DNA of 64,000 bases, from contig NZ_CP013926.1 of assembly GCF_001562115.1 (NCBI RefSeq), positions 3,844,001-3,908,000 of the forward strand, written 5' to 3'. The DNA is from Alteromonas stellipolaris (GTDB lineage: Bacteria > Pseudomonadota > Gammaproteobacteria > Enterobacterales > Alteromonadaceae). Positions 30,237 through 46,292 of this stretch are shown here, piece by piece (within the stretch, counting starts at the first letter, position 1; every line of letters starts with the position of its first letter). A program made the position numbers and the translations under genes. The notes below the pieces were generated by a model. The model saw only the letters and a list, made by a program, of their open reading frames with translations. It ran no database searches and had not been told where the DNA came from.

Positions 30237-30321
30237 TTCTTCAGGCAGATTTTCATACTTTTCAATGTTAGATGTTACAGACTACTTAAAACATGCCACT
30301 TATCACAGCTTAGCCGCTTCA

Positions 30322-31287
30322 TTAAGATGCGGCTAACACTGCAATAAGCAGCATAGAGAGCATTTCAGAAGGCTCTTCAGAATAGTGCCCATTATCCGCA
30401 CCACCTTTCTTGGACACAGCTTTAAAGAACGGGATACTATGCGGTTTAGTTAGCGCAATAATATTGTACGAACTGTCACCCCGCCGAGTCGCGTTCCCTG
30501 TGTACATGGCCATCACGCTTCGCAGTTTGTTGCCTGAGATAAAACTGCTTACGCTGTTTAATATTTCAGCCTCATAATTTTTGCTCACTTGTACTCCTCT
30601 ACCTGAGTTAATCAATATATTGGCCTGGGCTTCAGATATTGCATAAATATCAAAACTTCTAGAGCCAATCATTTCATAAGGACCTACATCACCGATAAGT
30701 ACGTAAGCTTTGCGCACTTTGTCATTGGGGGGCGAGAACATCGCCATGGCATTCGATACCGCTTCTGGTACATCGGTTTCACCTGGTAAAAGCTCAAGCG
30801 CATCTATCTGCTGAATGAAGCCTGCCCGAGATGCCTTTGTAATAACAACACTTGGCACAGTGATAAACTTGCCATCGCCACCATAGGCCACCACACCAAT
30901 CTTAAACTCCCGAGTAACCTTCGGCACTTCAATAGTGAGCCGTTTAATGGCATCTTTTAATCGTTGTAAAGGCACTGCCATCGAGCCACTGATATCAATG
31001 GTGATCACCAACTCTATCGGGTATTTATTTATGCCTTCTGCAAGTTCTTGCTTGGCTTCTTCTAAGCTTTTTTGCGCAGAAGCTAACTCTTTTTTAGTTT
31101 GAGTAGACTCTGCTTTAGCCGCATCAAGTTCTTTTTTAATTTCACTTATAGATTCGGGAGAAGAGCCCGTGTTGGGGAAAAAAGGCAGTGCAATAATGGC
31201 TAAAAACATGAATGCTCCCATCGCTGAGGCAAAGAGATCAAGTGCAGACATGCTAAATACGTTGACTTCCCTGTTACGTAGTTTCAT
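30322..31287 (-). CDS. vWA-domain protein with TolR/MotB-like membrane helix
   Basis: This 321-residue protein starts at 31287 with AGGTG 8 nt upstream. The N-terminus has one membrane helix (ALDLFASAMGAFMFLAIIAL), opening with Asp17, where ExbD, TolR and MotB carry their proton-handling aspartate. A coiled-coil stalk follows (about 45-85), and then a von Willebrand A domain. The MIDAS metal site is complete: DISGS (98-102), Thr171 and Asp200. With N-in topology the vWA domain lies in the periplasm. A TolQ/MotA-like gene is four genes upstream in the same operon (34495), which supports an ion-driven channel pair. It is the last gene of the nine-gene minus-strand unit, 22 nt after the previous one. 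Confidence 0.85.
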   Translation of the reverse strand: MKLRNREVNVFSMSALDLFASAMGAFMFLAIIALPFFPNTGSSPESISEIKKELDAAKAESTQTKKELASAQKSLEEAKQELAEGINKYPIELVITIDISGSMAVPLQRLKDAIKRLTIEVPKVTREFKIGVVAYGGDGKFITVPSVVITKASRAGFIQQIDALELLPGETDVPEAVSNAMAMFSPPNDKVRKAYVLIGDVGPYEMIGSRSFDIYAISEAQANILINSGRGVQVSKNYEAEILNSVSSFISGNKLRSVMAMYTGNATRRGDSSYNIIALTKPHSIPFFKAVSKKGGADNGHYSEEPSEMLSMLLIAVLAAS

Positions 31288-31309
31288 TTGCTTTCACCTG
31301 TTCTTTCAC

Positions 31310-32821
31310 CTAAGACGGCAAAAAATGAACCGAAAAAGTTACCGTACCAATTCGAAGGGTATCGCCATTTTCTAGTTCGGCCTTCGTATTTGGCGCTAAG
31401 TTTCTATTATTTATTGCAGTTCCATTTACGCTTCCTAAATCTTCAATCATTACCTTATTGTCTATCAAAATAACGTTTAAATGCTCTCGTGAAACACCCG
31501 GCACATTAATAACGTAGTTTACTTTTTGTGCCGACCGTCCTATTAGTATGCCGCCTTCGGTTCTAGCCAAAGTAGACCCAATAACTTTAATGCGATGCTC
31601 ACCACCTGCTTCATCTTTGCCATCGAGAACAATGTCGTCAAAGTTTGCAGACGCTTTGCTAAGCGCTTCTTGAGCCGATACGACTTTGGCTTTCTCTGCC
31701 GACAGTTGCTGCTTGTTTTCTGAGGCCTCTTGCTCCACTTCAAGCAGTTTTTTCCTACGGCGGCTTAAAACAATAAGCACCACAACCAGCACTAGAATGA
31801 TTGGAATGGCATAGTAAATCATTTTTTGTTGTTCACTTTTCTTTTCTTCTTCAAATTCCAGCTCTTTTTGCTTACTCTTCGCTTCGGTTTCTTTTACTTT
31901 TTCTTCTTGTTCTTTAATCGCTTTTTCAGCATCTTCTAGCTTTTTCTGTTGCTCAATAGTCTGTTGCCTAGCTTCTTCTAGTGCCTCTTCGGCCTTTTGA
32001 CGTTCCGCATCTTGGCGGGTCGTATCAGCTTTAGCTTCTTCTAGCGCTTTTTTCTTTTCTTCTGCTTCCTTCTTTAACTTTTCAAGCTCTTCTTCCACCG
32101 CCTTGCGTTCAGCTTCTTGCTTCTCAAGTGTTGCTTGCTGCTTTTTCTTTTCTTTTTCTAACGCGGCCAATTGATCTGCTTCAGATAGACAACTATTTTC
32201 TGACTCTTTGAAATCTATGTTTTGCTTAGTAAGAAACGTTTTTAAGGTGGTTAGGCTGGTCGCTGCTGAAAATGATGAAGACAGTTTAAGGCGCTTATCG
32301 AAAACCCCTTTGATATCGCTAACACTCACCCCCAATAGCTCTTGGCAATTGTTCACCAGCGGTGCACCAAACTCTCCTTCACTCAGCAATGCCGTGTGCT
32401 GCCACCGCTGTTCAGGGTGGTTTTTATCTGCCGGAAGTATAGAGTGAAGTGTGCCTGCCGTTGACAGATCATTTAGCTTCAACAAGTAGATTTTACTTCC
32501 AATGGAAGTATCCTCCTTAGCCACTACCGCAGGATTACCCGTTAACCCGTTCACATGTAGAATGGCTAAATCTAAGCCTTCATCATTTGCTGATAGGTCA
32601 GCAATCAACCTCGCCTTGCTGGTAGGGTCGGTAACAACATACTGATTTCCTTGTGCCAGCAGTTTTTGGTTGATAATGACGGTTTCGTTTGCGACCAGCG
32701 TAGCGATACCTGTTTGCTCAACTTTTCCATCATCAAGCACCTCTATAGTAACCGTAGTAAAGGCATAGGATGGCAAAGTAAAAAGTACCCAAAGTGCAAT
32801 AAACATCCCTACTCTATACAC
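31310..32821 (-). CDS. Type-I membrane pseudo-trypsin with coiled coil and cytoplasmic FHA domain
   Basis: This 503-residue protein starts at GTG 32821, with AAGGA 8 nt upstream. Order of parts: signal peptide (1-20); a trypsin-like domain (about 24-200); a charged coiled coil (about 213-330); a membrane helix (334-353) followed by RRRKK; and an FHA domain (about 405-500) with IGRSAQ, GVSREHLNV and DLGSVNGT. The protease fold appears inactive. The usual GNSGGP is GEFGAP (149-154), which replaces the nucleophilic Ser with Phe, and no histidine occupies the expected TAxH position, although DLAIL (Asp84) is kept. It is probably a periplasmic sensor or ligand-binding module that signals through the membrane to phosphothreonine recognition. 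Confidence 0.82.
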   Translation of the reverse strand: MYRVGMFIALWVLFTLPSYAFTTVTIEVLDDGKVEQTGIATLVANETVIINQKLLAQGNQYVVTDPTSKARLIADLSANDEGLDLAILHVNGLTGNPAVVAKEDTSIGSKIYLLKLNDLSTAGTLHSILPADKNHPEQRWQHTALLSEGEFGAPLVNNCQELLGVSVSDIKGVFDKRLKLSSSFSAATSLTTLKTFLTKQNIDFKESENSCLSEADQLAALEKEKKKQQATLEKQEAERKAVEEELEKLKKEAEEKKKALEEAKADTTRQDAERQKAEEALEEARQQTIEQQKKLEDAEKAIKEQEEKVKETEAKSKQKELEFEEEKKSEQQKMIYYAIPIILVLVVVLIVLSRRRKKLLEVEQEASENKQQLSAEKAKVVSAQEALSKASANFDDIVLDGKDEAGGEHRIKVIGSTLARTEGGILIGRSAQKVNYVINVPGVSREHLNVILIDNKVMIEDLGSVNGTAINNRNLAPNTKAELENGDTLRIGTVTFSVHFLPS

Positions 32822-32857
32822 AAGCGTATTCCTTAAATTATCTGTCAGTTAATTTTG

Positions 32858-33676
32858 TTAGTGGGTAGATGGCTCTTCTAATATTTCACCCGCTTCCGGC
32901 TGCACCGTAGCGGGCTCATTTACCACAGGTTCTTTTACCTGCATGACAATAAGTGTCGCGTTATCTTGTTTAAGCCGTTCTTGTGCTTTAACTGCGTTTA
33001 ACAGTGCCATTGTTAGCTCATCAGTATCATTTGAAGACTGGTGACATACCTCAATGATGGTTTCATCACTACAACTTTCCACCCCATCGCTAGCCAAAAT
33101 AAGTAAATCGTTTGGTTTGAGTTCTCTGGAGTGGTCTGGCGCATCAACTCTCTCAATATTTTCGCCCATTACGGCCTCAAGTAATTGAGAGCGAATCGGT
33201 GATGTCCTTGCGTCTTCACTAGAGATTTCGCCTAACTCAACCTTTCTAGCCAAGACTTCCGACATAGAATGGTTTTCGTTGAGTCGCACCAGCGTCTTAT
33301 CACGTAGCAACCACATTGGGCTGTCTCCCACGCTTAGCCATTGCAGATATAGGCCATCAAAAACCGCCGCGATTAACGTGGTTCCCATACCTGATAACTC
33401 AGGCTTTTCCTTTACCTGATGATAAATCGCAAGGTTAGCCGCATCTAACGCGTTAATTAAACGCTGCTTAATATCCTGCTCATCACTTTCAATAAAGTGC
33501 TGTTTGAATGTATCGATAACCAAGTGACTGGCGATATCTCCTCCTACATGCCCTCCCATTCCATCAGCTAACAGCAACAATCGGAAACCATTAGGCCAAG
33601 TTACTACTGAGGCGCTGTCTTGCTGACTTTTACGAGCACCTATTATTTGAGACCACGCCACCTGTACCGAATACAT
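32858..33676 (-). CDS. PP2C-family Ser/Thr phosphatase, stand-alone
   Basis: This soluble cytoplasmic metal-dependent phosphatase has 272 residues. The start chosen is ATG 33676 (MYSVQVAWSQ), with AGAGGA just upstream; the frame is open to 33721 without a better site. All PP2C motifs are present: an Asp in QQDSAS, ADGMGGHVGGD, GMGTTLIAA, SVGDSPMWLL, LASDGVE and QDNATLIVM. It starts 2 nt after the FHA gene and probably reverses phosphorylation by the kinase encoded at 37123. The same set of kinase, PP2C and FHA regulates type VI secretion in some bacteria, but no secretion genes are present here. Confidence 0.9.
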   Translation of the reverse strand: MYSVQVAWSQIIGARKSQQDSASVVTWPNGFRLLLLADGMGGHVGGDIASHLVIDTFKQHFIESDEQDIKQRLINALDAANLAIYHQVKEKPELSGMGTTLIAAVFDGLYLQWLSVGDSPMWLLRDKTLVRLNENHSMSEVLARKVELGEISSEDARTSPIRSQLLEAVMGENIERVDAPDHSRELKPNDLLILASDGVESCSDETIIEVCHQSSNDTDELTMALLNAVKAQERLKQDNATLIVMQVKEPVVNEPATVQPEAGEILEEPSTH

Positions 33677-33678
33677 GA

Positions 33679-34485
33679 TTAATCCTCTTCCATGCTTTCC
33701 CAAGTAAAGTTTTCGCCACACAAAGGAACAAACCTCAATGTAGTTTCGCCAATGGAAATGTGACTAAAAGCGGGTAATATCATAGGCTGCAGCACCGGTG
33801 CGGGCTGGTTATCTAAGTAAGTCATATTGGTACCTGAACCCGGCTGAATATAGAACTGATTACCCCGAGGATCGTAAGAGATTGTGGCATGATTAACCCT
33901 AGATACTTGGCCATCCCCGAAATCAACACAAACCCTTTCTGATGCACTTCGACCGATACTATTTTGCCCAAATCCCAATTTTAAAAAGTGCCCTTTACCT
34001 GGCCCTTTTACCACCACTAGCCACCCAGAGATGGGGTCTTGCATAGGATCAGGCATCGAATGTGGTGACTGCGCGGCGGTTTCAGTCGTACTGACTGGCG
34101 GCGCGCTAGGTCTTCTATTTCCCCCTATCACAGTGGGTAATGCATCAATGTCATCGTGTTCTGATATTCCAGCGTTTTCTCGAATATCAACGAACTCGTC
34201 AGGTGTTGTCGATGGATGCCGGTTGGCCGGTGTTGTTGGAGGCTCATCAAATATTAAACCCGAGGTTGCAGACCTTGATGGGCTGGTGCTGGAGGGCACA
34301 GTATTAACGGGGGTAGCGTTAGAGGGTGTGGTCACTGTTGGCCCGTCATTAGCGGTATTGCTACCCATACCACTCGCACGAGTTTCAGGTTCGGTTGGAG
34401 CTGTATCTTTAGAAGCTGTATCTCCAGAAACTATGACTGACGGCATATCAACTGGAACGCCATCAGGGCCTCGTTTAATCGCCAT
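33679..34485 (-). CDS. FHA-domain protein with long disordered N-terminus
   Basis: This 268-residue cytoplasmic protein starts at 34485, with GAGGTG 5 nt upstream inside the end of the channel gene. Residues 1 to about 145 are low complexity (Thr, Pro, Ser and Asp rich) with many possible phosphorylation sites, including TAPTEPET and DALPTVIGG. Residues about 155-260 form an FHA domain (NSIGRSASERVC, SRVNHATISYD). The usual SxxH phosphopeptide-binding segment reads SRVNHA. The disordered tail could be the kinase target that this or other FHA domains of the cluster read, which is inference. Confidence 0.85.
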   Translation of the reverse strand: MAIKRGPDGVPVDMPSVIVSGDTASKDTAPTEPETRASGMGSNTANDGPTVTTPSNATPVNTVPSSTSPSRSATSGLIFDEPPTTPANRHPSTTPDEFVDIRENAGISEHDDIDALPTVIGGNRRPSAPPVSTTETAAQSPHSMPDPMQDPISGWLVVVKGPGKGHFLKLGFGQNSIGRSASERVCVDFGDGQVSRVNHATISYDPRGNQFYIQPGSGTNMTYLDNQPAPVLQPMILPAFSHISIGETTLRFVPLCGENFTWESMEED

Positions 34486-34494
34486 GGTGCACCT

Positions 34495-35328
34495 CTATTT
34501 GTTTTCGTAAAGTCTATTAATTAAATTATCCATACAATATTGACCGGCATTATTAAGTGCCATTTCTTCTCTGGCCTGCACGATATGCAGTAAGAAAACC
34601 AATACCGCTGACATGATCAGCGCCACTAACGTGGTATTGAACGCTAAGCCTAAATCTGTGGTAAGTAGCCCTAGCCATTCTCTAATCGCGTCGGTGTCTG
34701 ATACATCGGGCATATCTGCCGCCGACGATAAGGCTAATGCAATACCCACCACCGTGCCGATAAACCCCAGCGTAGGTATTAACCACACAAGGTATCGCAA
34801 CATATTAAATTTGAGCTCTATTTCATGCTGCATTAACTCAAGGCTGGAATTCATTAAAGAGTTGGCTTGGTCAGCTGAATTACTGCCCTGGAATTGCAGG
34901 ATCACCCGTTTGGTGAGCCGTTGAACAAAGAAGTGTTGAGCAACTTTACGCTCGCATATACCGGTATAAATAGGTACGAGATCTTTCGCCCTCAGCATAA
35001 CGTCATCTTCTTCAGGCAATATATAAAGCTTAAGCTGCTCTAACTCTTTGGCGGAACGATTGTGCCTAACCCACATTTCGCCTAGCCCTATAAAGAACAT
35101 GAGCCACATTAGGTTTTGTAAGGTAGCGGGAAACATACCACTACTGCGATCGAACAATACATCGCCCACGTTTATTTGACCGGTTTTGGCTTCGCTGACA
35201 GGAAGAATTAATGCAAATACGCCAACCACAAATATGGTGATAAATATAGCGACTAAAGCCACAATGACTCGATATTTCTGCTCGTCTGATTCCAATAAAT
35301 TCATAACGTTTATCAATCCATGTTTCAT
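34495..35328 (-). CDS. TolQ/MotA/ExbB-like ion-channel protein
   Basis: This 277-residue inner-membrane protein has hydrophobic segments at about 22-43, 70-86, 182-203 and 226-250. The last two carry the MotA/TolQ/ExbB signature (LVWLIPTLGFIGTVVGIALA, then LGLAFNTTLVALIMSAVLVF), in which the threonines and glycines line the ion path in known members. A cytoplasmic loop of about 95 residues lies between the second and third helices. The start at 35328 lacks a good ribosome site, so Met9 is possible. Its likely partner is the vWA protein with a TolR/MotB-like helix (30322). Homologues power Ton/Tol work, flagella, gliding and Zorya defence; what this pair drives is unknown. Confidence 0.85.
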   Translation of the reverse strand: MKHGLINVMNLLESDEQKYRVIVALVAIFITIFVVGVFALILPVSEAKTGQINVGDVLFDRSSGMFPATLQNLMWLMFFIGLGEMWVRHNRSAKELEQLKLYILPEEDDVMLRAKDLVPIYTGICERKVAQHFFVQRLTKRVILQFQGSNSADQANSLMNSSLELMQHEIELKFNMLRYLVWLIPTLGFIGTVVGIALALSSAADMPDVSDTDAIREWLGLLTTDLGLAFNTTLVALIMSAVLVFLLHIVQAREEMALNNAGQYCMDNLINRLYENK

Positions 35329-35337
35329 GTTAGCTAT

Positions 35338-35706
35338 TTACGAGGACGATTCAATTTCACCCGTAGCAGAGTTGCGAATAGGCTTGAATGACATAGGCTC
35401 GACATCTTCATTCACGTCTTTTTGCTTTGAAAAGCTAGCCACTGCAGGGGAATTTATAATGCTACTGAACTTAATTTTTTTCGTTCCCAATACGAGGGAA
35501 TCGGCTCCGTCTATGTAGCCTTGCTTAAGCGGCTTCCACTCGCCGTTTTTATTAAAAAAAGTGCCGTGGGAAGACCCATGATCGGCACAAAAATAACGCC
35601 CACCACTGGTAATAGTGATTTCCATGTGAATGCGAGAAATACTTGGGTCGTTTACGCAAATGTCAGCTTGACTCGACCTGCCTACGGTATAGGTTACAAA
35701 CGCCAT
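35338..35706 (-). CDS. Small FHA-domain protein
   Basis: This 122-residue cytoplasmic protein is little more than an FHA domain. The start chosen is ATG 35706 (MAFVTYTVGRSS), with GGAAG upstream, 1 nt after the preceding stop codon; the frame is open to 35745. FHA features are VGRSSQADICV, SISRIHMEIT and DHGSSHGTFFN. The last 35 residues are Ser/Glu rich and end IESSS. It lies between a lipoprotein gene and the channel gene with gaps of 1 and 9 nt. It probably acts as an adaptor that recruits phosphothreonine-bearing partners to the membrane complex. Confidence 0.85.
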   Translation of the reverse strand: MAFVTYTVGRSSQADICVNDPSISRIHMEITITSGGRYFCADHGSSHGTFFNKNGEWKPLKQGYIDGADSLVLGTKKIKFSSIINSPAVASFSKQKDVNEDVEPMSFKPIRNSATGEIESSS

Positions 35707-35707
35707 A

Positions 35708-36235
35708 TTATTCTTCCAATGAGTAGCGGGTTCGCATGGCCACAATGTCTTTTATACCTGTAGATACAATACCCACCTGCTTTTCCACGCTGTCTACTTG
35801 TGAGTCTAATTGCTTTAAATCTTTAACCAGTTCATCTTGGCTACCTTTTTTCTCGCGAAGCTGCGCATTTTTATTTTCAATGAGCTGAGCACTGTCTTTG
35901 TTCTGTTGATCAAGTGCGAGGGTTTGCTGTTCAACTTGCGCTATTTCCTGTTTTAAATCGGCAAGCTGCTGCTCGGTGAGTTCGTAGGTAGATAACTCTT
36001 TTTTAACTAAAAAAAGCTGACTTTTATAATAATCTACTTCTTCATCTACCCCTTTCACTCGGCTGTTTAAGGTATCCAGTTTTTCCTGCATACTCGCAAT
36101 GGTTTTTTCATCGAGCCCGCTAACACTTGCCCAAATTCGATCCGCCGTGCTTTGTTCTCTAGGATCAGCAGATACTGCACAGCCCACCACCATTACACTT
36201 AACATTACCGCAGCGACTTTATTAAAAGGGTTCAT
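35708..36235 (-). CDS. Coiled-coil lipoprotein
   Basis: This 175-residue predicted lipoprotein has a signal ending VVGC (Cys19). Residues about 45-160 form an almost continuous coiled coil with heptad-like Leu/Gln spacing (EKLDTLNSRVKGVDEEV and LKQEIAQVEQQTLALDQQ). No enzymatic motif was seen. It lies 11 nt after the glycine-zipper lipoprotein gene and shares a similar coil, so the two may pair in the periplasm and span toward the peptidoglycan or outer membrane. The family was not recognised. Confidence 0.75.
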   Translation of the reverse strand: MNPFNKVAAVMLSVMVVGCAVSADPREQSTADRIWASVSGLDEKTIASMQEKLDTLNSRVKGVDEEVDYYKSQLFLVKKELSTYELTEQQLADLKQEIAQVEQQTLALDQQNKDSAQLIENKNAQLREKKGSQDELVKDLKQLDSQVDSVEKQVGIVSTGIKDIVAMRTRYSLEE

Positions 36236-36246
36236 TTCTAAGCTCC

Positions 36247-37053
36247 TTAGCCTGCAATTAGGCTAGTAAGTGCGGTACTTTGCTCATCGAGTTGTGACGA
36301 CTGAGTTTGAATAGAGGCCAGCTGCATTGAAAGTTGATTACGCTTAGCCAGTAGCTCTTCATGCGCCTGTTGAGTCTTTGCCTTATCTTCTGTTAGCGAC
36401 GCAATTTCTTCTTCGCTGTCTTCAAGTGCACTGTCTAAATACACAAGCGTTTCTTCGTACCGAGTTTCAAGCATTTTATTTTTTTCTCGCAGTGCTTTAA
36501 CTTCAGTTAGAAGTGCTGTTGCCTCAGCAATTTCAGCTTTAGTTAACGATGCTTTACTTTTAAGTAATTCAACCCTATCTTCCATGGTGGTAATATTTAA
36601 TTTGGTTTGTGCTAACTCGTCTTCACGTGTTTTAATCGCGTTTTCAGACGCTTCAATTTCTGACTCTAAGAACTCGTAATTACTGGCATAATTCATTCGT
36701 CTTATGGCTATCGCTTCACCTATGTATTTTCCCAATTTATCGCCTGCTATCCCTCCGATCGTGGCACATCCCGCCATAAGCAGCGTGTTGCCGTTAAATT
36801 TCTTATAGCACGCGAATCCTCCAACAATAGCGCCAATAACTTGGCCAACAGTCCGAGCAGTACTGATGTCCTCTTTGCCTAATTCTTCAACTGGCGAACT
36901 CACTTCAAATGAGCTGAAGTCCATACCACCTTCACTACTTCCCTGATTACTCTCTGGCGTTAAAGCCCCCATCAAACTTTCTGCTGTATTTGCGCATCCT
37001 GTTAAGAGTAAGCATGCAATGCTAGCTGGTACTACTTTGTTTAACGTATTCAT
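36247..37053 (-). CDS. Lipoprotein with glycine zipper and coiled coil
   Basis: This 268-residue predicted lipoprotein has a signal ending LLTGC (Cys20). An acidic/Ser-rich linker is followed at about 68-115 by a small-residue segment (VGQVIGAIVGGFACYKKF, MAGCATIGGIAGDKLGKYIG), resembling glycine-zipper membrane-inserting motifs. The rest (about 125-262) is a long coiled coil (EIEASENAIKTREDELAQ and further heptads). Nothing catalytic is visible. It is the second gene of the kinase operon, 69 nt after the kinase stop. Acting as an envelope scaffold for the channel/vWA pair is an inference from context. Confidence 0.75.
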   Translation of the reverse strand: MNTLNKVVPASIACLLLTGCANTAESLMGALTPESNQGSSEGGMDFSSFEVSSPVEELGKEDISTARTVGQVIGAIVGGFACYKKFNGNTLLMAGCATIGGIAGDKLGKYIGEAIAIRRMNYASNYEFLESEIEASENAIKTREDELAQTKLNITTMEDRVELLKSKASLTKAEIAEATALLTEVKALREKNKMLETRYEETLVYLDSALEDSEEEIASLTEDKAKTQQAHEELLAKRNQLSMQLASIQTQSSQLDEQSTALTSLIAG

Positions 37054-37122
37054 CGTTTAAATCCCTATTAAATTGATAGACGTCTTTCAAGTTTGTATTT
37101 CGTATGTATCTCGTACGTAGTC

Positions 37123-38889
37123 TTAACTGCAATCTGTCGGGGTCACCGTGATGCGCTTTTCGAGTAACGCGGTGATTTTAGATTTCTCACTTAACAACGA
37201 TGCTTCTTGAATAAGTGCTTTTAGCGACGTGAGATAATCAGCTTTATCGTATTTCCCGCGCTGTTGATTTGTACTAATCATGTCGTCAAAGACACTGTCA
37301 ATTCGGCTTGACGAAGATTGATGACGAGTCACCAAATCGAAAGCTCGCTCTCTGGCTTTGGCTAAATTCTTTTCAATGTTTAAAGTCCGATTTTCAATAC
37401 CTGAGCGAAGCAATTCTATATTTCGCTCCCCGGCTTCATCCATATCATCGATGTCTTGCATCGCGCATAACATTCTCTTTTCAATAGTATTACTGTCGTT
37501 ATCCATCTCTGCCTTAGTGACCAAAGAATAGATAATATCTATCTCTTCGTTCACTAATACTTGCGTAGATGCGGTACTACTGTCAGTCGACTGCAAGCCA
37601 TAAAAGACACCAAGCAACACCACCACAGCCAAGCAAAGTGCGCCAACCCATACTTTGAAACTATTATTTTTAGATGCTGGAGCCCGATGGTGAGGTTGAT
37701 TTTGATAAGACTGTGGCTCAGCACCATTAGTAGTCGGCCCTGTCTGGTAGCCGGTATTACTGCTCACGGGAATAGGGGCGGAACTAATAGGCCCAGCACT
37801 AGAACTTACATTCGAAGTCGGCGGTGAAGTAGCATGTGAGGTTTGAATATGCGCCACATGAGGCGGATAACTTGTCGATGAACCAGGTGTCGAATGAGCC
37901 GACGAATCAGGTGAATCTATTCGCGTGGTTTGTTGCTCATCCAACCCAACGCCCGTGCCCTCATAAACATCTGATGAAACCGGTACACCTTGCAGCGCTG
38001 CGATAACCTCGTTAGCCGTTTGGAATCGCTCACTTACCCTTATCGCGATCGATTTTTTAATCGTATTAATAAAATTTTCAGAATACTGGCCTTTAACTTC
38101 ATCAATACGTGTTAATGCAGGGTCTGCTTGCCCTTGAAGCACCCGAGCAGTGCGATCCTCCACACGTGGTGGGTTAGCGTTAAGAACGATACGCCACATC
38201 ATGGCACCCACAGCATGAATGTCAGTCCATGGCCCTAGTTCACCTTCAGAGCCGACTTGCTCTAAAGGTGCATATCCATAAGTTTGCATCTGATTTTCAG
38301 ACTTTTGAGTATGACCGAAGTTTTGCTTCGCCGCGCCAAAATCTATCAGTAGCGGGCGCTCATCTATTGAACGAACAAAAATATTAGCAGGCTTAATATC
38401 TCTGTGTAAAACACCTTGTTCGTGTATGTATTGCAACCCTTCTAACACTGGAATCATCAACTTTGTAATTTGCGCTTCAGTGAGTGGACTGCCTTGTGCG
38501 GTATGGGCTTTGAGTATTTGAGCGAGCTCTTTCCCTCGCTCCAAATTCATCACTAAATACGCCGTTCCATTGTGCTTAAAGAAATCCTTGCAGCGAATAA
38601 TATTAGGATGGTCATCAAACTGAACAAGCTGCTTTGCTTCATCGAGAAATTTTTGAATGCCTGTTTCAAACTCTATTTCATCAGACTGGCTGAGGGGGTA
38701 AACCGTTTGACCTTCGCGGGTAGCACAGTGCTGTGGCATGAACTCTTTGATCGCCACCAAAGATTCAAGGTGTGTATGGCGGGCTTGATAAACAATACCG
38801 AAGCCTCCAACCCCAAGGACTGACTCAATTTGATATTGTTGAAGTTGCGTGCCAGCTGGCAACGCCAGTTTGTGTACCTTACTGCTCAT
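37123..38889 (-). CDS. Transmembrane Ser/Thr protein kinase (PknB-type)
   Basis: This 588-residue membrane kinase starts at 38889, with GAGG 6 nt upstream. The kinase domain (about 15-300) has every key element: GVGGFG (26-31), the VAIK lysine (Lys48), HRDIKPAN (162-169) and DFG (183-185). The activation segment ends YGYAPLEQ. A proline/serine-rich linker with TTRIDSPDSS follows, then one membrane helix (about 415-435) and a helical periplasmic domain of about 150 residues. It heads the minus-strand operon that encodes two FHA adaptors, a PP2C phosphatase and a channel, and is the obvious source of the phosphothreonines those domains read. Confidence 0.92.
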   Translation of the reverse strand: MSSKVHKLALPAGTQLQQYQIESVLGVGGFGIVYQARHTHLESLVAIKEFMPQHCATREGQTVYPLSQSDEIEFETGIQKFLDEAKQLVQFDDHPNIIRCKDFFKHNGTAYLVMNLERGKELAQILKAHTAQGSPLTEAQITKLMIPVLEGLQYIHEQGVLHRDIKPANIFVRSIDERPLLIDFGAAKQNFGHTQKSENQMQTYGYAPLEQVGSEGELGPWTDIHAVGAMMWRIVLNANPPRVEDRTARVLQGQADPALTRIDEVKGQYSENFINTIKKSIAIRVSERFQTANEVIAALQGVPVSSDVYEGTGVGLDEQQTTRIDSPDSSAHSTPGSSTSYPPHVAHIQTSHATSPPTSNVSSSAGPISSAPIPVSSNTGYQTGPTTNGAEPQSYQNQPHHRAPASKNNSFKVWVGALCLAVVVLLGVFYGLQSTDSSTASTQVLVNEEIDIIYSLVTKAEMDNDSNTIEKRMLCAMQDIDDMDEAGERNIELLRSGIENRTLNIEKNLAKARERAFDLVTRHQSSSSRIDSVFDDMISTNQQRGKYDKADYLTSLKALIQEASLLSEKSKITALLEKRITVTPTDCS

Positions 38890-39424
38890 TCGTCCCTCTG
38901 CAGTGGTAAAATACTTACCTGTATACTCACAATTCTTGTTTTAAATTTTTATCGTAAAATTTTGTTAGATTGTGTGGCGCCTTATAGCGCTAATTTTGGA
39001 AACTTTACAAAATACGAAAGCCCTTATCGATCATTTTTTAAACAACCCTAAAAGGTATACACCAAAGAAAATGACGGTGCAATAACTTCCCCGCCCATAA
39101 TATGTTTATTTTTTAAACGCTAGCCACGGTACGAAAAATGATCAATACTCGTAGTTAGTAGTGAAAAGAATTTGCCTCTTTTCGTCGTTCTACGCAGTTA
39201 TGAAATATATAAAAAATATATATAAATGCGACATTGACGACACCAAGGACAGGTAAAAATATGAAAACTACATCTCCCCTCGCACTACTCACTACTGTGT
39301 CTATCTATCCGATTTACCGGCAACAACCAAACCTAATGTCCTTATCTGCCATCGTGTGATGGATGTTTAGCGATGCATTATTAATAACGCCATTAATCGC
39401 TGTGTTGCTTTATGGGAGGGGAAT
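38890..39424. other. Divergent promoter region of the phosphosignalling cluster
   Basis: This 535-nt AT-rich gap separates the kinase operon (minus) from the phosphatase/peptidase/ABC unit (plus). It includes a short possible ORF (39261-39359) and no clear operator. Joint control of the two units from here is likely from the layout alone. Confidence 0.5.
39261..39359 (+). CDS. Possible small ORF (32 residues)
   Basis: ATG 39261 is preceded by AAGGACAGG and the frame runs 32 codons to TGA at 39357. The product would start MKTTSPLALLTTVSIY, weakly signal-like. It has no recognised family and could be a chance frame. Confidence 0.2.
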   Translation: MKTTSPLALLTTVSIYPIYRQQPNLMSLSAIV

Positions 39425-41257
39425 ATGCAAAACCAATATCGCGTTTTCTCAGCTAGTCATATCGGCCAGCGAAATGAAAACCAAGATGCATTTGCCGTTT
39501 TAACACACTCTAAGTGTGATGAGTTACTGTGTGTGGTGGCCGATGGTATGGGTGGGCATGAAGGGGGCGCGTTTGCCGCTAAGAAAGTTGTTGAAACGTG
39601 CAAGGTTAAATGGGAGGAATCTGAAAGTGTTATCGACCCCGACACTTTCCTTAACGAATTAGCCTTCTGTGCTCATGAGGCAGTAATAGATTCTGGAAAT
39701 GCAAAATTCGACCAAGCGCAATCTCTGGTGAGTGTGCTGTATATTCATTTAGAAAAAAGCATCTACGTCTCTATGCATGTGGGTGATTGTCGAACTATTC
39801 AGTTTGCCAATAAAAACTTCATTAAGCGGACCATCGACCAATCTCTCGCGCAACTCCACGCTTTGAAAGGCGACATTTCAGATGATGAAATTGCCTCTCA
39901 TCCAGATCAAAATAAAATTTATTCGAGTATTGGCGGTAGTGAACCTCCTTCTCCCATTATTGAGCATTATAGCCCTGACGGAGACACTTTTTTGATTTGC
40001 TCCGATGGGTTTTGGGAGCTTTTTAATCAACATGCGTTAGGCGTTGCAATAGAAAAAATTGAGAGTGCGGAAGCGTTAGAAGAACTGATAGAACAGCAGG
40101 TGTCAGGTAAGACGCACCACGATAATACCACCGCAATTATTGTGAAATTACCTCCGAGTGAAGATAGTTCTTCCATGTTCGTTCCCCCATCCCTTGCCGC
40201 GGGGCACCAAGAAAGTGAAGTTGAGGGATCTTTACGTACTGAAGGCGCTTTGCCAGCTGAAAGCTCTTTATCCGCTGAAAGCTCTAAACCCGCTGAAGGC
40301 GCTTTATCCGCTGAAGGCTCTAAACCCGCTGAAGGCGCTTTATCCGCTGAAGGCTCTACGTCATCGAATGACAAGAATACATCAACCAAATTAACCACTT
40401 ACCACTATAAATTTTTGCTAGGTTTGGGAAGCATCATTTTTGTTATCGCTCTGACGTATTACTTTCTAAGTAGTACTGATAGCACGCATGATTTACCTGA
40501 GCCCTTGCCCACATCGGGGAAGACTTCTCCCTCTAAGCAGTCATCAGAGCAACCATCAGGACAGGCGCCCGACCAAAAACCTGAACAGACAAGTGAACAA
40601 AATAAAACCACGCCTTCTGAACCCCAAGGAAAATCATCAAAAGAGGCTATAGGCACTCAAGCTTCTACGGGCGAATCAGGGAATATAGAAACCCGTAGAC
40701 AGACGCCTAATATCCCTATATTGAATATCGATGATGCTATCGAAAAAACCGAAGACGTCATAAGGCAAAAAGGAGGTTTAGGTGAAAACGACACGCTTAA
40801 AGTCACTACCCGAGGTAATGTTATAGGTAATAGTCAGGTTATTAAATTTCAACAATTTTATAAAGACTTACCTGTATATGGTGCCCAAACCATCACCTTA
40901 GTTCGAGATGGCAAAATAGCCAACATAGACAGTAAGACACTCAATGATATCGACATAGATATTTCTCCTACATTATCTGCAAAAGAAGCGGTCATATTGG
41001 CTGAAGATGAAATTGGCACTCGCTTAAATGTACTTGAAGCCCCTCAGCTAATTATCTTTAAAAAAGAAGATAGCTATTTACTCATATGGCGAGCAGAAGT
41101 CGAAAAAGCAAGTGGCGAACGAGTCATGTTATTTCTAGACAGTACTAATGCCCTGATTGTCGAAGAAATTAGCCTGCATATCTCTGGGGGCCAAGAAGAG
41201 ATAAGCTTTGAGGATATTGCCTCTGAAGATGAAGCTTCAGAAAATGAAAAAGACTAA
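39425..41257 (+). CDS. PP2C phosphatase - membrane helix - M4-type propeptide (FTP/PepSY) fusion
   Basis: This 610-residue protein begins with a PP2C domain (about 1-245): ENQDAF, ADGMGGHEGGAF, HVGDCRTIQ, ICSDGFWEL and HHDNTTAIIV. Residues about 270-310 are Ala/Glu/Gly/Ser repeats coded by near-perfect DNA repeats. A membrane helix (330-349) and a Pro/Gln/Ser linker follow. The C-terminal part (about 428-590) matches the two-part propeptide of thermolysin-type peptidases. It has an FTP-like unit (IKFQQFYKDLPVYGAQTITL) and a PepSY-like unit (SAKEAVILAEDEIG, then YLLIWRAEVE and MLFLDSTNALIVEE). There is no peptidase domain. With a single helix the phosphatase is cytoplasmic and the propeptide periplasmic. 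The next gene encodes an M4 peptidase, the natural partner of such a module. Confidence 0.85.
   Translation: MQNQYRVFSASHIGQRNENQDAFAVLTHSKCDELLCVVADGMGGHEGGAFAAKKVVETCKVKWEESESVIDPDTFLNELAFCAHEAVIDSGNAKFDQAQSLVSVLYIHLEKSIYVSMHVGDCRTIQFANKNFIKRTIDQSLAQLHALKGDISDDEIASHPDQNKIYSSIGGSEPPSPIIEHYSPDGDTFLICSDGFWELFNQHALGVAIEKIESAEALEELIEQQVSGKTHHDNTTAIIVKLPPSEDSSSMFVPPSLAAGHQESEVEGSLRTEGALPAESSLSAESSKPAEGALSAEGSKPAEGALSAEGSTSSNDKNTSTKLTTYHYKFLLGLGSIIFVIALTYYFLSSTDSTHDLPEPLPTSGKTSPSKQSSEQPSGQAPDQKPEQTSEQNKTTPSEPQGKSSKEAIGTQASTGESGNIETRRQTPNIPILNIDDAIEKTEDVIRQKGGLGENDTLKVTTRGNVIGNSQVIKFQQFYKDLPVYGAQTITLVRDGKIANIDSKTLNDIDIDISPTLSAKEAVILAEDEIGTRLNVLEAPQLIIFKKEDSYLLIWRAEVEKASGERVMLFLDSTNALIVEEISLHISGGQEEISFEDIASEDEASENEKD
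40239..40359 (+). repeat. In-frame tandem repeat in the phosphatase linker
   Basis: About 120 nt of 18-nt units alternate (GCTGAAGGCTCTAAACCC and GCTGAAGGCGCTTTATCC), giving a 36-nt higher-order repeat. They encode Ala-Glu-Gly/Ser-Ser/Ala runs (AEGSKPAEGALS). The low divergence between copies suggests recent expansion, and the copy number probably varies between strains. Confidence 0.85.
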
Positions 41258-43607
41258 TTTTTCATTTAGCAAGCGCCGAATAGCGGGCATGTTATGGCTT
41301 GGGCTTCTTTTCTCCTTTCAGCTAGAACCCACGCTTGCAGCAGAGAAAATAGGTGTAAATCGTGCACCAAAGCCACTAGAGAACCAATCTATACTTTCTT
41401 CGGCAGCTGAAAGAAAAGCCTGGGTAAAAAATGCTTTATCTGCACAATTTAATTTAGATGAACACAACACCCTAGATACAAAAGACCAAGAACAGCTTTT
41501 AAATAGCTTTCGTGTAGTGTCTGTTTTCCAAAAATACAACAAGGTTCCTGTGGTGAATGGGGAGTCCCGTTTGCTTTTGAATGAGAAGAATCAGCCGGCT
41601 TATGTTCTGGGTAAGCACGGTAATATTTCTTCAACAAGCACAACAGTTCCAATGCTTAGCGAGGCAGATGCACTCTCAAGATTGCAAAGTGCCAAAGAGA
41701 CTGATGTTGCGTCTAGGTTAGTGTATTGGCCATCGCCAGAAGGTCACCACGTTCTGGCTTATGAATTCGAAGGTGAGTTTACAACTAAATTGGGGTTTGC
41801 CCCTTCACAGCGTGTTTTTATTGATGCATCTACCGGTGAAGAGTTAGACCGAATACCTTTATTTCACACTGCAATGCACCGGCAGGTAAATAACTTTGTA
41901 GCAGCGTGCAACGAATTTAAAGTTAAATTCCCTCTTATCCCCCCCCTCACCGATCGCGTTGAAGCGCGAGCTATGAAAATGCATGCGCGAACCGAAGGCA
42001 GCACCCCAAGTAATGATGCCTCTGTTGAAACTGCATTTACACTATTAGGTGATGCCTATGAATTTATAGATGCCGTACTGGGTATGGATAGCATTGACGG
42101 GAATGGTTTACGATTGAACATGTTTATCAATGTGCATTTTTTAAAGGGCATGCCCACTATTCAGTGTTACGGCGATGTGTTCAATGCCATGTGGATGTCG
42201 CGGAAACAGTCTTTATATGTGCCAGAGGAAGGCCTTCATTTTATTGAGATTACTATGCATGAACTGGCTCATGGCATAGTTTCAAATGGCAGTAATCTTG
42301 AATATTCATTTCAGTCAGGGGCGTTAAATGAATCGATTGCTGACTCCATCGGCATTGCATTTCGAATTTGGCTAGAGCATGCAAATAAACAAACCAATTC
42401 AATCAAAATTCCCAGGGAGTACTGGATATTACGGATGCCTTCTGGTCCAGAAAGGGATTTAGCCGACCCAAGTTCTCTTGATTTTGGACAAGGCAGTTAC
42501 CCCGATCACATGGATGATTTTTTCAGTTGGCCAATTAAAAAAGATCGGGGGGGCGTGCATATAAACTCTTCCATAATGAATATGGCGTTCTATTTAATGG
42601 CCAATGGTGGGCCGCATCCACGCCATTCTGGGACGGATAAGGTAGTGGCTATTGGGCTATCCTCGGCAGTGCACATAGTTGCACAAGCAGCATCTAAACT
42701 TCTGGTGCAAAGTTCCAATTTTGAAGACGCTCGCTTTGCCTACGCATTGGCCGCAGAGGCATTACATGGGAAAGGCTCAAAAGAATGGATATCGGTGCAC
42801 CAAGCAATGGATGCCGTAGGCGTATCCGGTGCGTGGAGTATGCCTCAAGAAATTCCAGAAATAGAGCCTGAACCTGAAACTACTCCTATACCTAAACCAG
42901 AGCCAGAGCCAGCTCCCCAGCCAGAACCAGAGCAAAAACAAACCGAAACGGTGCCTGCTCCTCCTGCACCTGAAAAAAGGCCTGAACAAACACCCGCCCC
43001 TAGTGAAACACAACACGACAATCAACTCATCATTATATTGGTGTTAGGCGGTGTAGGCCTTTGTATTGCATTGCTCGCGCTATTTAAATTGAAGCCTGCT
43101 TATAGCAAAAACGAAGGGCCTGTAGGGTATGGCGCTTATATTTCGGCAACTAGAGCTTCATCGACCAGTACTTCAGTGCATGCAAGCCGAGCGTCAAGTC
43201 GAACAGCTAATGAAACCACTAGCGGAACTGCCAGTTCAGCTTCTAAGCAACCTGAAAGGCAATCCTCCCCTTCTCTAACGTCGGTGTCACTCGCGTCGCC
43301 TTGTTACTTACAATCGCTTGCGGGCAGCCAAAAACTTGATATTTCTGTTGCTACCGCGGCTAAGGGTGAAGGCTTTGTGATTGGCCGAGCTTTGGAGTTA
43401 GTGCATTTGCAGCTTAGAGATGAACGAATATCCAGACGGCATTTAAGAATTAAATTAAAAGGCAGCAGTTTCACGGTTGAAGATTTAAATTCAACACACG
43501 GTACTTTGCTGGACGGTGAGCGACTCCAGGCTTTTACACCAGCACCCATTAGGCACGGACAGCTTCTTCGTATTGCTGACTTTAGTTATGTTTTCAAAGT
43601 AAATTGA
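41244..43607 (+). CDS. M4 metallopeptidase - membrane helix - FHA fusion
   Basis: This protein has about 787 residues from ATG 41244; the frame is open to 41208, but 41244 gives a proper signal peptide (KRRIAGMLWLGLLFSF ... TLA-AE). It overlaps the phosphatase gene by 14 nt. Order: its own FTP/PepSY propeptide (about 35-205), then an M4 peptidase domain. The zinc motif is HELAH (339-343), the third ligand Glu363 in NESIAD, and the transition-state His439 in GGVHINSS; the 20-residue spacing from the second His to Glu363 equals thermolysin. A Pro/Glu-rich linker, a membrane helix (LIIILVLGGVGLCIALLALF) and a cytoplasmic FHA domain (FVIGRALELV, RISRRHLRIK, DLNSTHGTLLD) follow. A thermolysin-like enzyme tethered to an FHA domain is not an arrangement I know. 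Confidence 0.88.
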   Translation: MKKTNFSFSKRRIAGMLWLGLLFSFQLEPTLAAEKIGVNRAPKPLENQSILSSAAERKAWVKNALSAQFNLDEHNTLDTKDQEQLLNSFRVVSVFQKYNKVPVVNGESRLLLNEKNQPAYVLGKHGNISSTSTTVPMLSEADALSRLQSAKETDVASRLVYWPSPEGHHVLAYEFEGEFTTKLGFAPSQRVFIDASTGEELDRIPLFHTAMHRQVNNFVAACNEFKVKFPLIPPLTDRVEARAMKMHARTEGSTPSNDASVETAFTLLGDAYEFIDAVLGMDSIDGNGLRLNMFINVHFLKGMPTIQCYGDVFNAMWMSRKQSLYVPEEGLHFIEITMHELAHGIVSNGSNLEYSFQSGALNESIADSIGIAFRIWLEHANKQTNSIKIPREYWILRMPSGPERDLADPSSLDFGQGSYPDHMDDFFSWPIKKDRGGVHINSSIMNMAFYLMANGGPHPRHSGTDKVVAIGLSSAVHIVAQAASKLLVQSSNFEDARFAYALAAEALHGKGSKEWISVHQAMDAVGVSGAWSMPQEIPEIEPEPETTPIPKPEPEPAPQPEPEQKQTETVPAPPAPEKRPEQTPAPSETQHDNQLIIILVLGGVGLCIALLALFKLKPAYSKNEGPVGYGAYISATRASSTSTSVHASRASSRTANETTSGTASSASKQPERQSSPSLTSVSLASPCYLQSLAGSQKLDISVATAAKGEGFVIGRALELVHLQLRDERISRRHLRIKLKGSSFTVEDLNSTHGTLLDGERLQAFTPAPIRHGQLLRIADFSYVFKVN

Positions 43608-43648
43608 GCGAAGCACTGCAAGCGCCAACCTATGTTAAAGAGAACAAA

Positions 43649-46153
43649 ATGGCAGAGTTACAAGCAGTAAGCGTTACCATAACTTCCTTGAGTGGGGTTG
43701 AGTCGGAATTTGTCCTGTCGCAAAACGGTGAGTTCGATATTGGTCGTTCTGACACTTGCTATTCAAGCATTAATGCTGAGTTATTATCGCGGCGGCATTT
43801 AACGTTGCGCTACACAGATGGGCAGATTTTTGTTACCGATAATAACAGCTCTAATGGCAGCGCTATTGGCGACGTGAGATTGATTGGGGGGCAAACCTAT
43901 GCAGTACAACTGCCCAGTACTATTTTATTGGCCAATGGCAGCATTCACGTTCAGCTTTCATCTGTTGCAGAGCAACTAGCTTCAAATTCACCACCCAATA
44001 CACTAAAACCGACTACGTCATCGCCTTCATCGACTTCACATTTAACCGGACAGGGCTTGAATTTGGCGTCTAATTTGGATGCTGCACCGCAAGGGCCTAT
44101 AACCCACAGCGGATCAGGAAATGACGAGCTTCATCAACTGTTGTTAACCCACGGGCAAGTATTAATTGGTCGTTCTTACGACTGCAATTACGTAATTGAT
44201 TCGCTACAAGCTTCACGCAAACATGCGTTGCTTACGCTTTCTAATAATCGCATTACCCTTAAAGATCTTGATACAACCAATGGCACCTTTGTAAACGGCG
44301 AAAGAATAGCTGGCTCAGTAAACATCACCGCCACTGACGAAATTACTATTGGTACTACAACGTTTGCGATTCAAACCGGAACTGTAGAACTCAAATATGC
44401 CATTGTGGCAGATAATATTGAAAAGGTTTATGCCAAGGGGATAGTTGGCCTGAACACCATGAGTTTGAAAATACCCAGTCAGCAATTTATTGCCCTAATG
44501 GGCCCTTCTGGATGCGGTAAATCAACCCTTTTGAAAGGCTTAAATGGCGCCAATCCTATTACGTCAGGTGCGATTACTGTTCAAGGCTTAAAGCTTAATA
44601 ATAGTAACTACAATACCCTTAAGAAATACATTGGCTACGTGCCCCAAGACGATATTGTGCACGGTGAATTAAGTGTGGAAAAGACCCTTTTTTACGCGGC
44701 CAAATTACGCATTTCAGACGACGTAACAAAGCAGGAAATCAAAAATAAAATTAGTACGGTATTGGCAAGTTTAAACTTAGATACCGACGCTATCAGAAAG
44801 AGTAAAGTGAGTGATTTATCCGGCGGGCAAAGAAAACGAGTATCTATTGCTGTAGAACTACTTAACGATCCTAAAATACTGTTTCTTGACGAACCCACCT
44901 CCCCTTTAGATCCCGAAACTATTGAAGATTTTTTATCGTGTATTAGGCGACTAGTGAGTAAAGGCCAAACGGTTATTATGGTAACGCATAAACCCTCGGA
45001 TTTAGACTATGTTGATCAGGTTATCTTTTTGTCGAAGGGGGGATATCAGACCTACTACGGCGATAAAAACCAGCTGCTTAACCACTTCGAAAAAGACAAT
45101 ATCATTGAAGTGTATTCTATGATGAAAAATCCTAATCAAGGCAAGCGTTGGTACGATCACTGGGTGAGTCAAAACCCGGCTTCTGAACTTAGCGTTAAGC
45201 AGGAAGTACTTGCGAATAAGTCGAATACCGCGCTTTTAGGGCAATATTTCTGGCTATGTGTTCGCTATTTTAATATCAAACTTAACGACCACGCCAATTT
45301 GCTTCTACTGCTTGCTCAGCCTCTTATTATTGGGGGGTTATTGGTCTTCATATTTAGCAAGTTACAGGTCAGCGTAATGTTTATGATGGCGGTTTCCGCC
45401 GTGTGGTTTGGCGTAAGCAACGCTGCCAAGGAAATAGTATCAGAACTGCCCATTTATGAACGAGAACGCATGTATAACCTAAACATCTTTAATTATATTG
45501 CATCTAAATTAACGGTACTGTCGATTATTGCCTGCATTCAAGTTGCCATATTCATCGGGATTACTCATTTAGCTTACAGCGGCGGTAATAGCGTTAATGG
45601 CATTAGTGAAGAGACACAATTATGGAGTATAAGTAGCACCGCGCTCTTTATGCTGCTGTTATCGGTTTCTGCCACCCTATTCGGATTGTTTCTATCAGCA
45701 GTTTTCACTACAACCGAAAAAGTCATGACCTTTGTACCTATCGCCCTTATGCCTCAGATTATGCTTGCTGGTATTATTGCGCCATTAGATAACAATATAA
45801 AAATTCTACTTAGCTATTTAACGTTAGGTCGCTGGGGAACGGAAGGGTTTGCCCACATTCAAGATGAAGCCGCTAGAGAGCTAGGTAAATGGACAAATGA
45901 AAAAGCCGATATTCCTGCTTCGGTTATGCAACGCGTGTTAACTCCACCCACAACGGGAAACGAAAATAATGCCGCAGAATTCACCACACAAGGCGCAATG
46001 CAGCAACTCAATTTATATGACGATAAGTCAGGGATGGTGAGCTTATTTCCTGAAAGTTTTACAGGAGTAATTATTGCCATCACATTGATAAATATATTGG
46101 CTTTCTGTGGATTGTTACTTGCACTTCGAAGCAAAGATAAACGCTTTATTTAG
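43649..46153 (+). CDS. FHA-FHA-ABC transporter (ABCG-type half transporter)
   Basis: This protein has about 834 residues from ATG 43649; a TTG at 43604 overlapping the previous stop codon is the alternative. FHA 1 (about 1-100: FDIGRSDTC, LSRRHLTLR, NNSSNGS) and FHA 2 (about 165-255: VLIGRSYDCNYV, ASRKHALLT, DTTNGTFVNG) precede an ABC ATPase. The ATPase has GPSGCGKST, the LSGGQRKR signature and Walker B (ILFLDEPTSPLDP, where family members usually have SGLDP). About six membrane helices close the protein. Mycobacterium tuberculosis Rv1747 has the same FHA-FHA-ABCG layout and is controlled by the kinase PknF. Phospho-control by the kinase at 37123 is therefore a reasonable inference; the exported substrate is unknown. 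Confidence 0.9.
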   Translation: MAELQAVSVTITSLSGVESEFVLSQNGEFDIGRSDTCYSSINAELLSRRHLTLRYTDGQIFVTDNNSSNGSAIGDVRLIGGQTYAVQLPSTILLANGSIHVQLSSVAEQLASNSPPNTLKPTTSSPSSTSHLTGQGLNLASNLDAAPQGPITHSGSGNDELHQLLLTHGQVLIGRSYDCNYVIDSLQASRKHALLTLSNNRITLKDLDTTNGTFVNGERIAGSVNITATDEITIGTTTFAIQTGTVELKYAIVADNIEKVYAKGIVGLNTMSLKIPSQQFIALMGPSGCGKSTLLKGLNGANPITSGAITVQGLKLNNSNYNTLKKYIGYVPQDDIVHGELSVEKTLFYAAKLRISDDVTKQEIKNKISTVLASLNLDTDAIRKSKVSDLSGGQRKRVSIAVELLNDPKILFLDEPTSPLDPETIEDFLSCIRRLVSKGQTVIMVTHKPSDLDYVDQVIFLSKGGYQTYYGDKNQLLNHFEKDNIIEVYSMMKNPNQGKRWYDHWVSQNPASELSVKQEVLANKSNTALLGQYFWLCVRYFNIKLNDHANLLLLLAQPLIIGGLLVFIFSKLQVSVMFMMAVSAVWFGVSNAAKEIVSELPIYERERMYNLNIFNYIASKLTVLSIIACIQVAIFIGITHLAYSGGNSVNGISEETQLWSISSTALFMLLLSVSATLFGLFLSAVFTTTEKVMTFVPIALMPQIMLAGIIAPLDNNIKILLSYLTLGRWGTEGFAHIQDEAARELGKWTNEKADIPASVMQRVLTPPTTGNENNAAEFTTQGAMQQLNLYDDKSGMVSLFPESFTGVIIAITLINILAFCGLLLALRSKDKRFI

Positions 46154-46257
46154 CCTTAACTGTTGCAGTGAATTAGTAGCAGAGGATTAGCCGCGAGAAA
46201 TTTTTGATAGTAAAGTTTGCACAAGAAAATGGCAGCGAGTAGTTTGCGGTTAGCCAT

Positions 46258-46284
46258 TAGCGGCAGTAGTCTTACCTGCCGCTA
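46258..46284. other. Hairpin between converging genes
   Basis: TAGCGGCAG (46258-46266) and CTGCCGCTA (46276-46284) form a 9-bp stem with a 9-nt loop, between the ABC gene end and the helicase stop. No T tract is evident on either strand, so termination is uncertain. Confidence 0.35.
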
Positions 46285-46292
46285 TGATAATC

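Follow-up and report, generated by a model that had tools for sequence, protein, structure and literature searches.

The 5:2 motors MotAB, TolQR, ExbBD, ZorAB and AglRQS serve mechanical, transport or defence outputs, and we know of none that is gated by a dedicated set of Ser/Thr kinase, phosphatase and FHA proteins. A membrane kinase, a PP2C phosphatase and an FHA protein act together across the envelope in the threonine phosphorylation pathway of the H1 type VI secretion system (H1-T6SS; PpkA, PppA, Fha1, TagQRST), whilst the Agl-Glt machine of Myxococcus joins a TolQ-family motor to an FHA protein. A further motor type has been predicted, in which a TolQ-like wheel works without TolR/ExbD in rotation-based force transduction, a vWA protein supplies a transpore helix with a conserved Asp, and the TolQ protein bears a ring of Thr (available text of PMC12204202, Mol Biol Evol 2025). 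Here we describe a block of twelve open reading frames (ORFs) in Alteromonas stellipolaris that shares features with each of these. It lies in a 64,000-nucleotide stretch (the window; contig NZ_CP013926.1, positions 3,844,001 to 3,908,000), to which all coordinates refer, and occupies 30322-46153 as two divergent units. Judged from sequence, we hold with about even confidence that the core of this block would be a proton-motive-force-driven 5:2 envelope motor under Ser/Thr-phosphorylation control, which would also govern periplasmic proteolysis.

The first-pass annotation had proposed a twelve-gene trans-membrane phosphosignalling system here, and by its anatomy this is right. The twelve ORFs with the stated domains are present in the ORF list and by Pfam, six FHA domains occur in five proteins, and the topology, with kinase, phosphatases, FHA domains and ATPase inside and peptidase, propeptide, pseudo-protease, vWA domain and lipoproteins outside, agrees with a simple hydropathy and charge script, from which the lipoboxes and transmembrane segments are also taken. 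These six FHA matches are the only ones in the whole genome, and one of its four kinase-domain matches over cut-off belongs to the block. From its start, the minus-strand unit encodes a membrane Ser/Thr kinase with a periplasmic domain (37123..38889; PF00069 at 1.6e-39, transmembrane segment 411-429, HRDIKPAN and DFG kept), two lipoproteins, a small FHA protein (35338..35745), a TolQ/MotA-like candidate wheel subunit (34495..35328; 277 aa, Pfam MotA_ExbB at 1.7e-10), a soluble FHA protein with a Thr-rich N-terminal linker (33679..34485), a soluble PP2C phosphatase (32858..33721; PF13672, PP2C_2), a pseudo-trypsin-FHA protein (31310..32821) and a vWA protein (30322..31287; PF00092/PF13519, Pfam vWA match 7e-8, DISGS kept). 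The plus-strand unit, across a 535-nt divergent intergenic region (38890..39424, from the ORF coordinates), encodes a PP2C-FTP protein, an M4-FHA protein and an FHA-FHA-ABCG protein. Gaps of 1-36 nt had been offered as support for a single complex, but listed neighbours within the units lie -50 to 69 nt apart, overlaps included. Some ORFs seem to be listed with too early a start; for the TolQ-like protein, the majority of aligned homologues begin at its residue 9.

Conservation of the core was examined in a scan of GTDB species genomes, which returned 418 TolQ relatives, the best 80 loci being used; many carrier genomes are metagenome-assembled, and single odd lineage placements could be binning errors. 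The run small FHA, TolQ, linker FHA, PP2C, (pseudo)trypsin-FHA, vWA and kinase recurs across these loci and the window, and the core is found in the same or permuted order in six or more phyla; by titles and tree labels the lineages include Pseudomonadota, Rhodothermota/Bacteroidota, Latescibacterota (where the trypsin-FHA and vWA genes come first), Acidobacteriota, Gemmatimonadota and Binatota. Counted on one strand at gaps of -60 to 100 nt in the 80 loci, the neighbour pairs are small FHA-TolQ (56), TolQ-linker FHA (50), linker FHA-PP2C (44) and trypsin-FHA to transpore-helix protein (38). In the 42 well-covered loci, those with at least 7 kb on both sides of TolQ and with near-identical Alteromonas rows included, the kinase and the transpore helix are each present in 40, the small and the linker FHA proteins each in 36, PP2C in 35, pseudotrypsin-FHA in 32, M4-FHA and active trypsin-FHA in 14 each, PP2C-FTP in 13 and FHA-ABC in three, all Alteromonas. 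All four of kinase, PP2C, motor helix and FHA are found in 34 of the 42, all of these co-occurrence counts being raw, without a random-locus control. L018, a near copy of L017, was dropped from the residue and motif alignments, the tree, and the motif and co-occurrence counts. Scattering of the genes in relatives, which the first-pass annotation had named as evidence against a system, was not seen for the core in the relatives examined. At E 0.001 the TolQ protein has 1853 relatives, more distant types being expected among them; the close type, at E 1e-40, occurs in 6 of 369 sampled genomes of the host's class, its own included. Three Rhodospirillaceae loci (L062, L065, L067) hold a small FHA protein, TolQ, a transpore-helix protein and a second FHA protein, which in L065 carries Sel1 repeats, and are possibly a minimal form of the cassette.

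The match to the predicted TolQ-vWA motor includes the residues presumed to form the ion path. In alignments built from one best member per locus, kept only when it fell in the cluster of the window gene, Asp17 of the N-terminal, MotB/TolR-like transpore helix of the vWA protein (residues 10-37, 31177..31260 on the minus strand, FSMSALDLFASAMGAF) is present in 63 of 63 rows, and the TolQ-like protein has an invariant Thr (80/80). No PF02472 (ExbD/TolR) match was found among the twelve proteins by Pfam. The TolQ-like protein, called an ion channel in the first-pass annotation, is more plausibly the wheel of a proton-driven 5:2 motor in which the vWA protein would be the axle, a TolQ-family wheel beside a vWA helix Asp and no TolR/ExbD being the arrangement proposed in the available text of PMC12204202. 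That text, taken without its figures, contains no 'kinase' and has FhaC as its sole 'fha', whereas the window has both kinase and FHA. It also describes vWA pairs as 'predominantly' heterologous and used an Idiomarina query; here there is a single vWA gene in the window and in L016, two in L101 and L102, and one or two elsewhere. The two transpore-helix vWA genes are adjacent in these last two Alteromonas loci (L101:4179-6057, L102:14894-16771). The GAP1-N2 GTPase conflict systems likewise set kinase, PP2C and standalone vWA side by side, but they are GTPase-centred, with 'TolQ' and 'MotA' absent from the available text (PMC7159879), and among the twelve proteins of the block Pfam found no GTPase family apart from weak P-loop hits in the ABC protein. 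A literature search within open-licence full text, with subscription papers and preprints outside its scope, found nothing that joins TolQ-type motors with FHA, PP2C and kinase, nor did the available parts of PMC12505986 and PMC7159879. The motor type is known from the 2025 prediction; the kinase, PP2C and FHA control and the protease layer are undescribed in the literature found.

A sister system with a TolQ-like protein was also seen, consisting of that protein, two transpore-helix proteins of the FLDxxxCxxGA type and large membrane proteins, in three loci of the same genus (L095:6380-12769, L096:4573-10958, L097:4802-11184) and one of the same order (L099:5296-13574). The one large membrane protein scanned, that of L096, has FGE-sulfatase and PEGA domains, and of the twelve proteins of the block only TolQ has a blastp match in these gene runs. 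In an Idiomarina-like genus the sister-type query matched 8 of 26 genomes, one at 66% identity, two at 36% and five at E 2e-4 or weaker, the two 36% matches being the genomes that carry L024 and L027.

Components of the proposed phospho-control layer are likewise conserved. The metal-site Asp residues of the soluble PP2C, which matches NF033484 at 6e-45 (under the curated cut-off of that model), are kept across aligned relatives. The N-terminal part of the linker-FHA protein is disordered by composition and carries acidic-x-[PKRLA]-T-x-[VIL] motifs, represented in the window by the candidate phosphothreonine site DALPTVI (34126..34146, minus strand); 72 such motifs occur in 51 of 54 family sequences, vs 7.3 (sd 2.7) in residue shuffles, of which 0 of 300 reach 72, the sequences being related so that the shuffles overstate the significance. 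Agrobacterium Fha has been shown by isothermal titration calorimetry to bind phospho-TssL DLPpTVVEI with a Kd in the millimolar range, and by analogy the linker motif is a candidate site of the same kind. The small FHA protein has a conserved C-tail motif (35350..35376, minus strand), with R124 in 53, T128 in 51 and G129 in 54 of 64 aligned rows. This tail reads RRNPxTGEI(I) in many relatives, which is similar to RNPxTGE, an arm motif of HU/IHF proteins. The periplasmic domain of the window kinase has no Pfam match over cut-off; those of four relatives' kinases carry FGE-sulfatase (L017, L021, L082), PEGA (L021, L100) or beta-helix (L100) domains, and such differences fit exchangeable sensors.

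The protease modules are membrane-tethered proteins with FHA ends. The window's pseudo-trypsin protein has a periplasmic trypsin-like domain (a sub-threshold Trypsin_2 match) that lacks the GxSGG and TxxH motifs, followed by a coiled coil, a transmembrane segment and a cytoplasmic FHA domain. An active trypsin protein, often adjoining a pseudo one, was found by motif in 23 of the 80 loci; the label rests on two sequence motifs, and the FHA part was not required in tree labelling and not found in L042 and L068. The M4 peptidase with its propeptide, transmembrane segment and cytoplasmic FHA (41208..43607, plus strand; PF02868 at 4.6e-34, FHA at 4e-16, M4 N-terminal and PepSY matches sub-threshold) keeps HELAH and NE..AD, and in its family HExxH and Glu375 are intact in 16 of 16 rows. 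It overlaps the gene for a second PP2C, which has a transmembrane segment (330-348) and a periplasmic thermolysin-type propeptide domain (39425..41257, plus strand; PF13672, PF07504), and M4-FHA adjoins a PP2C and/or FTP gene in 17 of 17 loci. In 16 of the 80 loci M4-FHA is no more than 10 kb from TolQ; in L029 it is on a different contig, the TolQ contig being merely 5.9 kb and hence uninformative. The pair of M4-FHA and PP2C-propeptide is clade-specific, other clades having active trypsin-FHA or neither. Tree labels over the 80 loci were 16 M4, 23 active trypsin and 41 none, with M4 confined to the loci on one side of a single branch (support 96/85) in the TolQ tree. No locus held both M4 and active trypsin, as judged from locus architectures and co-occurrence counts since the labelling script could hide a double-protease locus. 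Repeated replacement of one protease by the other was considered and rejected, the TolQ tree needing one change only. In Pseudomonas sp. WN033 (L022:6375-9461) a single 1028-aa protein has the order PP2C, transmembrane segment, FTP, M4, transmembrane segment and FHA, its PP2C and thermolysin-type parts being confirmed by Foldseek and by sequence matches in PDB.

From these parts the following mechanism can be proposed. A pentamer of the TolQ-like protein would encircle a vWA dimer, whose transpore helices would bear the proton-binding Asp, and the vWA domains would transmit torque or a pulling force to a partner in the periplasm or outer membrane. The membrane kinase may sense the periplasm through its lineage-variable domain and phosphorylate the linker Thr sites of the soluble FHA protein, the soluble PP2C resetting them. 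FHA proteins, chiefly the small one encoded beside TolQ, would read phosphothreonine and might engage the wheel like a clutch from its cytoplasmic side, whilst the cytoplasmic FHA ends of the tethered periplasmic proteases would read the same code. The M4 peptidase may be opposed by the PP2C with the extra propeptide-like domain, a putative inhibitor, so that the phosphorylation state inside would set proteolysis outside. In LapD-LapG, too, a cytoplasmic signal decides periplasmic proteolysis; here FHA domains would read phosphothreonine as the signal, and the protease is itself tethered to the membrane and has an FHA domain of its own.

Several parts of the block lie outside this core, and so of the proposed twelve-gene system the core recurs whilst the fixed set of twelve does not: the ABC protein, lipoproteins and M4 peptidase are not general. 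The FHA-FHA-ABCG half transporter (43604..46153, plus strand; Pfam FHA-FHA-ABC_tran-ABC2_membrane) keeps Walker A, signature and Walker B motifs. The parallel drawn earlier with Rv1747-PknF holds, since two N-terminal FHA domains, the ABC ATPase and the ABC2 membrane domain form one chain near a kinase, as in the available account of that pair; here, in contrast, the exporter supplements a motor cassette, and among the loci examined it was found in Alteromonas alone. The small coiled-coil lipoprotein (35708..36235, minus strand; lipobox VVGC) has blastp matches only in Alteromonas loci, and for the large one (36247..37053, minus strand; lipobox LTGC) a 5.8-billion database, searched at limited sensitivity, gave 7 protein clusters at E 0.001. 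No conserved role of the lipoproteins or the ABC protein emerged when the relatives' loci were examined for one, and all three look like local additions. The nearest named loci are those of A. lipotrueae (L015) and Alteromonas sp. 1_MG-2023 (L016); of 36 Alteromonas genomes, 3 (own included) have a near-identical TolQ. The left-neighbour protein, which we take to be DUF748-like, was matched in 30 of 59 Alteromonas genomes searched (own included), and of the 30 fetched loci four have the vWA gene after it (L104, the own locus, L107, L108, L109) and three have the right-hand helicase within the flank (L105, L106, L124). By blastn, alignment of L105 and L106 to the window stops at 30232 and restarts at 46291, both carrying 52 bp instead of the 16.06 kb of the whole block (30233..46290), and therefore the two divergent units are either both there or both missing in the genomes compared. 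The borders are sharp, the 52-bp spacer contains a hairpin, and no integrase or transposase family is found among the twelve proteins. Promoter matches of the sigma-70 type were rarer than in shuffled sequence (15 vs 30) and terminator-like sites near expectation (21 vs 16.3), and nothing is claimed from either.

A number of observations weigh against a phospho-gated motor that governs proteolysis. For the wheel, the A1 profile found no PDB chain at E 0.01, hhalign against the genome's own MotA fails (E 0.83), and Foldseek of the predicted TolQ fold gave no row below E 0.009; the VIA list for TolQ has unrelated helical chains from rank 21 onward. The kinase sits more loosely than the FHA genes (11 within 3 kb, 33 at 3-6 kb, 7 at 8-10 kb), and no kinase or PP2C was found in the fetched stretch of the three Rhodospirillaceae loci. 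PP2C tails (4 vs 4.3 in shuffles) and PP2C-FTP linkers (1 vs 1.9) show no excess of the Thr motif and kinase linkers a weak one (13 vs 4.2), and to these may be added the relatedness of the linker sequences and the uncontrolled co-occurrence counts. On the protease side, the exclusivity of M4 and active trypsin is not repeated independent evidence, seven Bacteroidota/Rhodothermota carriers have no M4-FHA match in their genomes, and the model of the Pseudomonas fusion has confident domains at a predicted template-modelling score (pTM) of 0.52, from which docking of propeptide on protease is not claimed. The absence of both protease types from 14 of the 42 well-covered loci is also what would be expected if the block held two independent modules with FHA domains in common, one a TolQ-vWA motor gated by phosphorylation and the other a protease or exporter regulated in that way, which merely travel together. 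The divergent transcription and clade restriction of the M4/PP2C-FTP unit and the Alteromonas-only FHA-ABC gene fit such an arrangement as well, but many of the active trypsin-FHA genes stand within the core run beside the vWA gene, so that a tethered protease belongs to the trypsin-FHA cores, and M4-FHA is often close to TolQ; we regard mere co-travel as unlikely.

A defence or retaliation sensor modelled on the H1-T6SS pathway would have the kinase sense envelope damage and an FHA protein fire a weapon or exporter, with the ABC exporter and lipoproteins as an Alteromonas sensor arm. The logic of membrane kinase, PP2C, FHA protein and envelope partners is shared, as the first-pass annotation had noted, and FGE-type domains, the class to which TagR of that pathway belongs, occur in the kinases of three relatives. 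The presumed output in the window is instead a TolQ-type motor with tethered proteases, the ABC and lipoprotein parts are not conserved, and TssB/VipA has 0 matches in the genome (E. coli control positive) and occurs in just 3 of 30 carrier genomes searched; T6SS control is unlikely, as is a sensor of this kind. An Agl-Glt-type machine for surface motility, adhesion or polymer transport, with the vWA domain as a force-transmitting or adhesive head, seems equally doubtful to us. M. xanthus GltG (FHA) binds AglR in two-hybrid assays, and GltG is the best NCBIfam match of the small FHA protein, far below cut-off (42.9 vs 650 bits), yet Agl-Glt has two ExbD/TolR-type partners (AglQ, AglS) where the window has a vWA transpore-helix protein plus kinase and PP2C, and the block has no PF02472, TPR or outer-membrane barrel match. 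Anti-phage defence related to Zorya is very improbable: PADLOC, applied to 10 of the 12 block proteins and not to the flanks, gave weak ZorA matches, but the 277-aa ORF has no long ZorA tail, its membrane core aligns in part only, and the other matches were kinase, ABC/ATPase models and weak coiled-coil.

The locus may, with a confidence somewhat short of even, represent a new class of signalling machine, a proton-driven 5:2 motor with a phosphothreonine clutch. In it FHA domains would link a sensor kinase both to motor torque inside and to the tethered proteases in the periplasm, one code thus setting force and proteolysis alike. The protease slot would then have been refilled in evolution, with a trypsin type or an M4 type, and the kinase sensor domain would be exchangeable. 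The natural fusion of PP2C, propeptide, M4 peptidase and FHA points to a specific way in which proteolysis could be controlled from the inside out. With a cassette that is found in several phyla, whose presumed ion-path residues are invariant and whose candidate phospho-site is conserved, phospho-gating of a motor can be tested directly.

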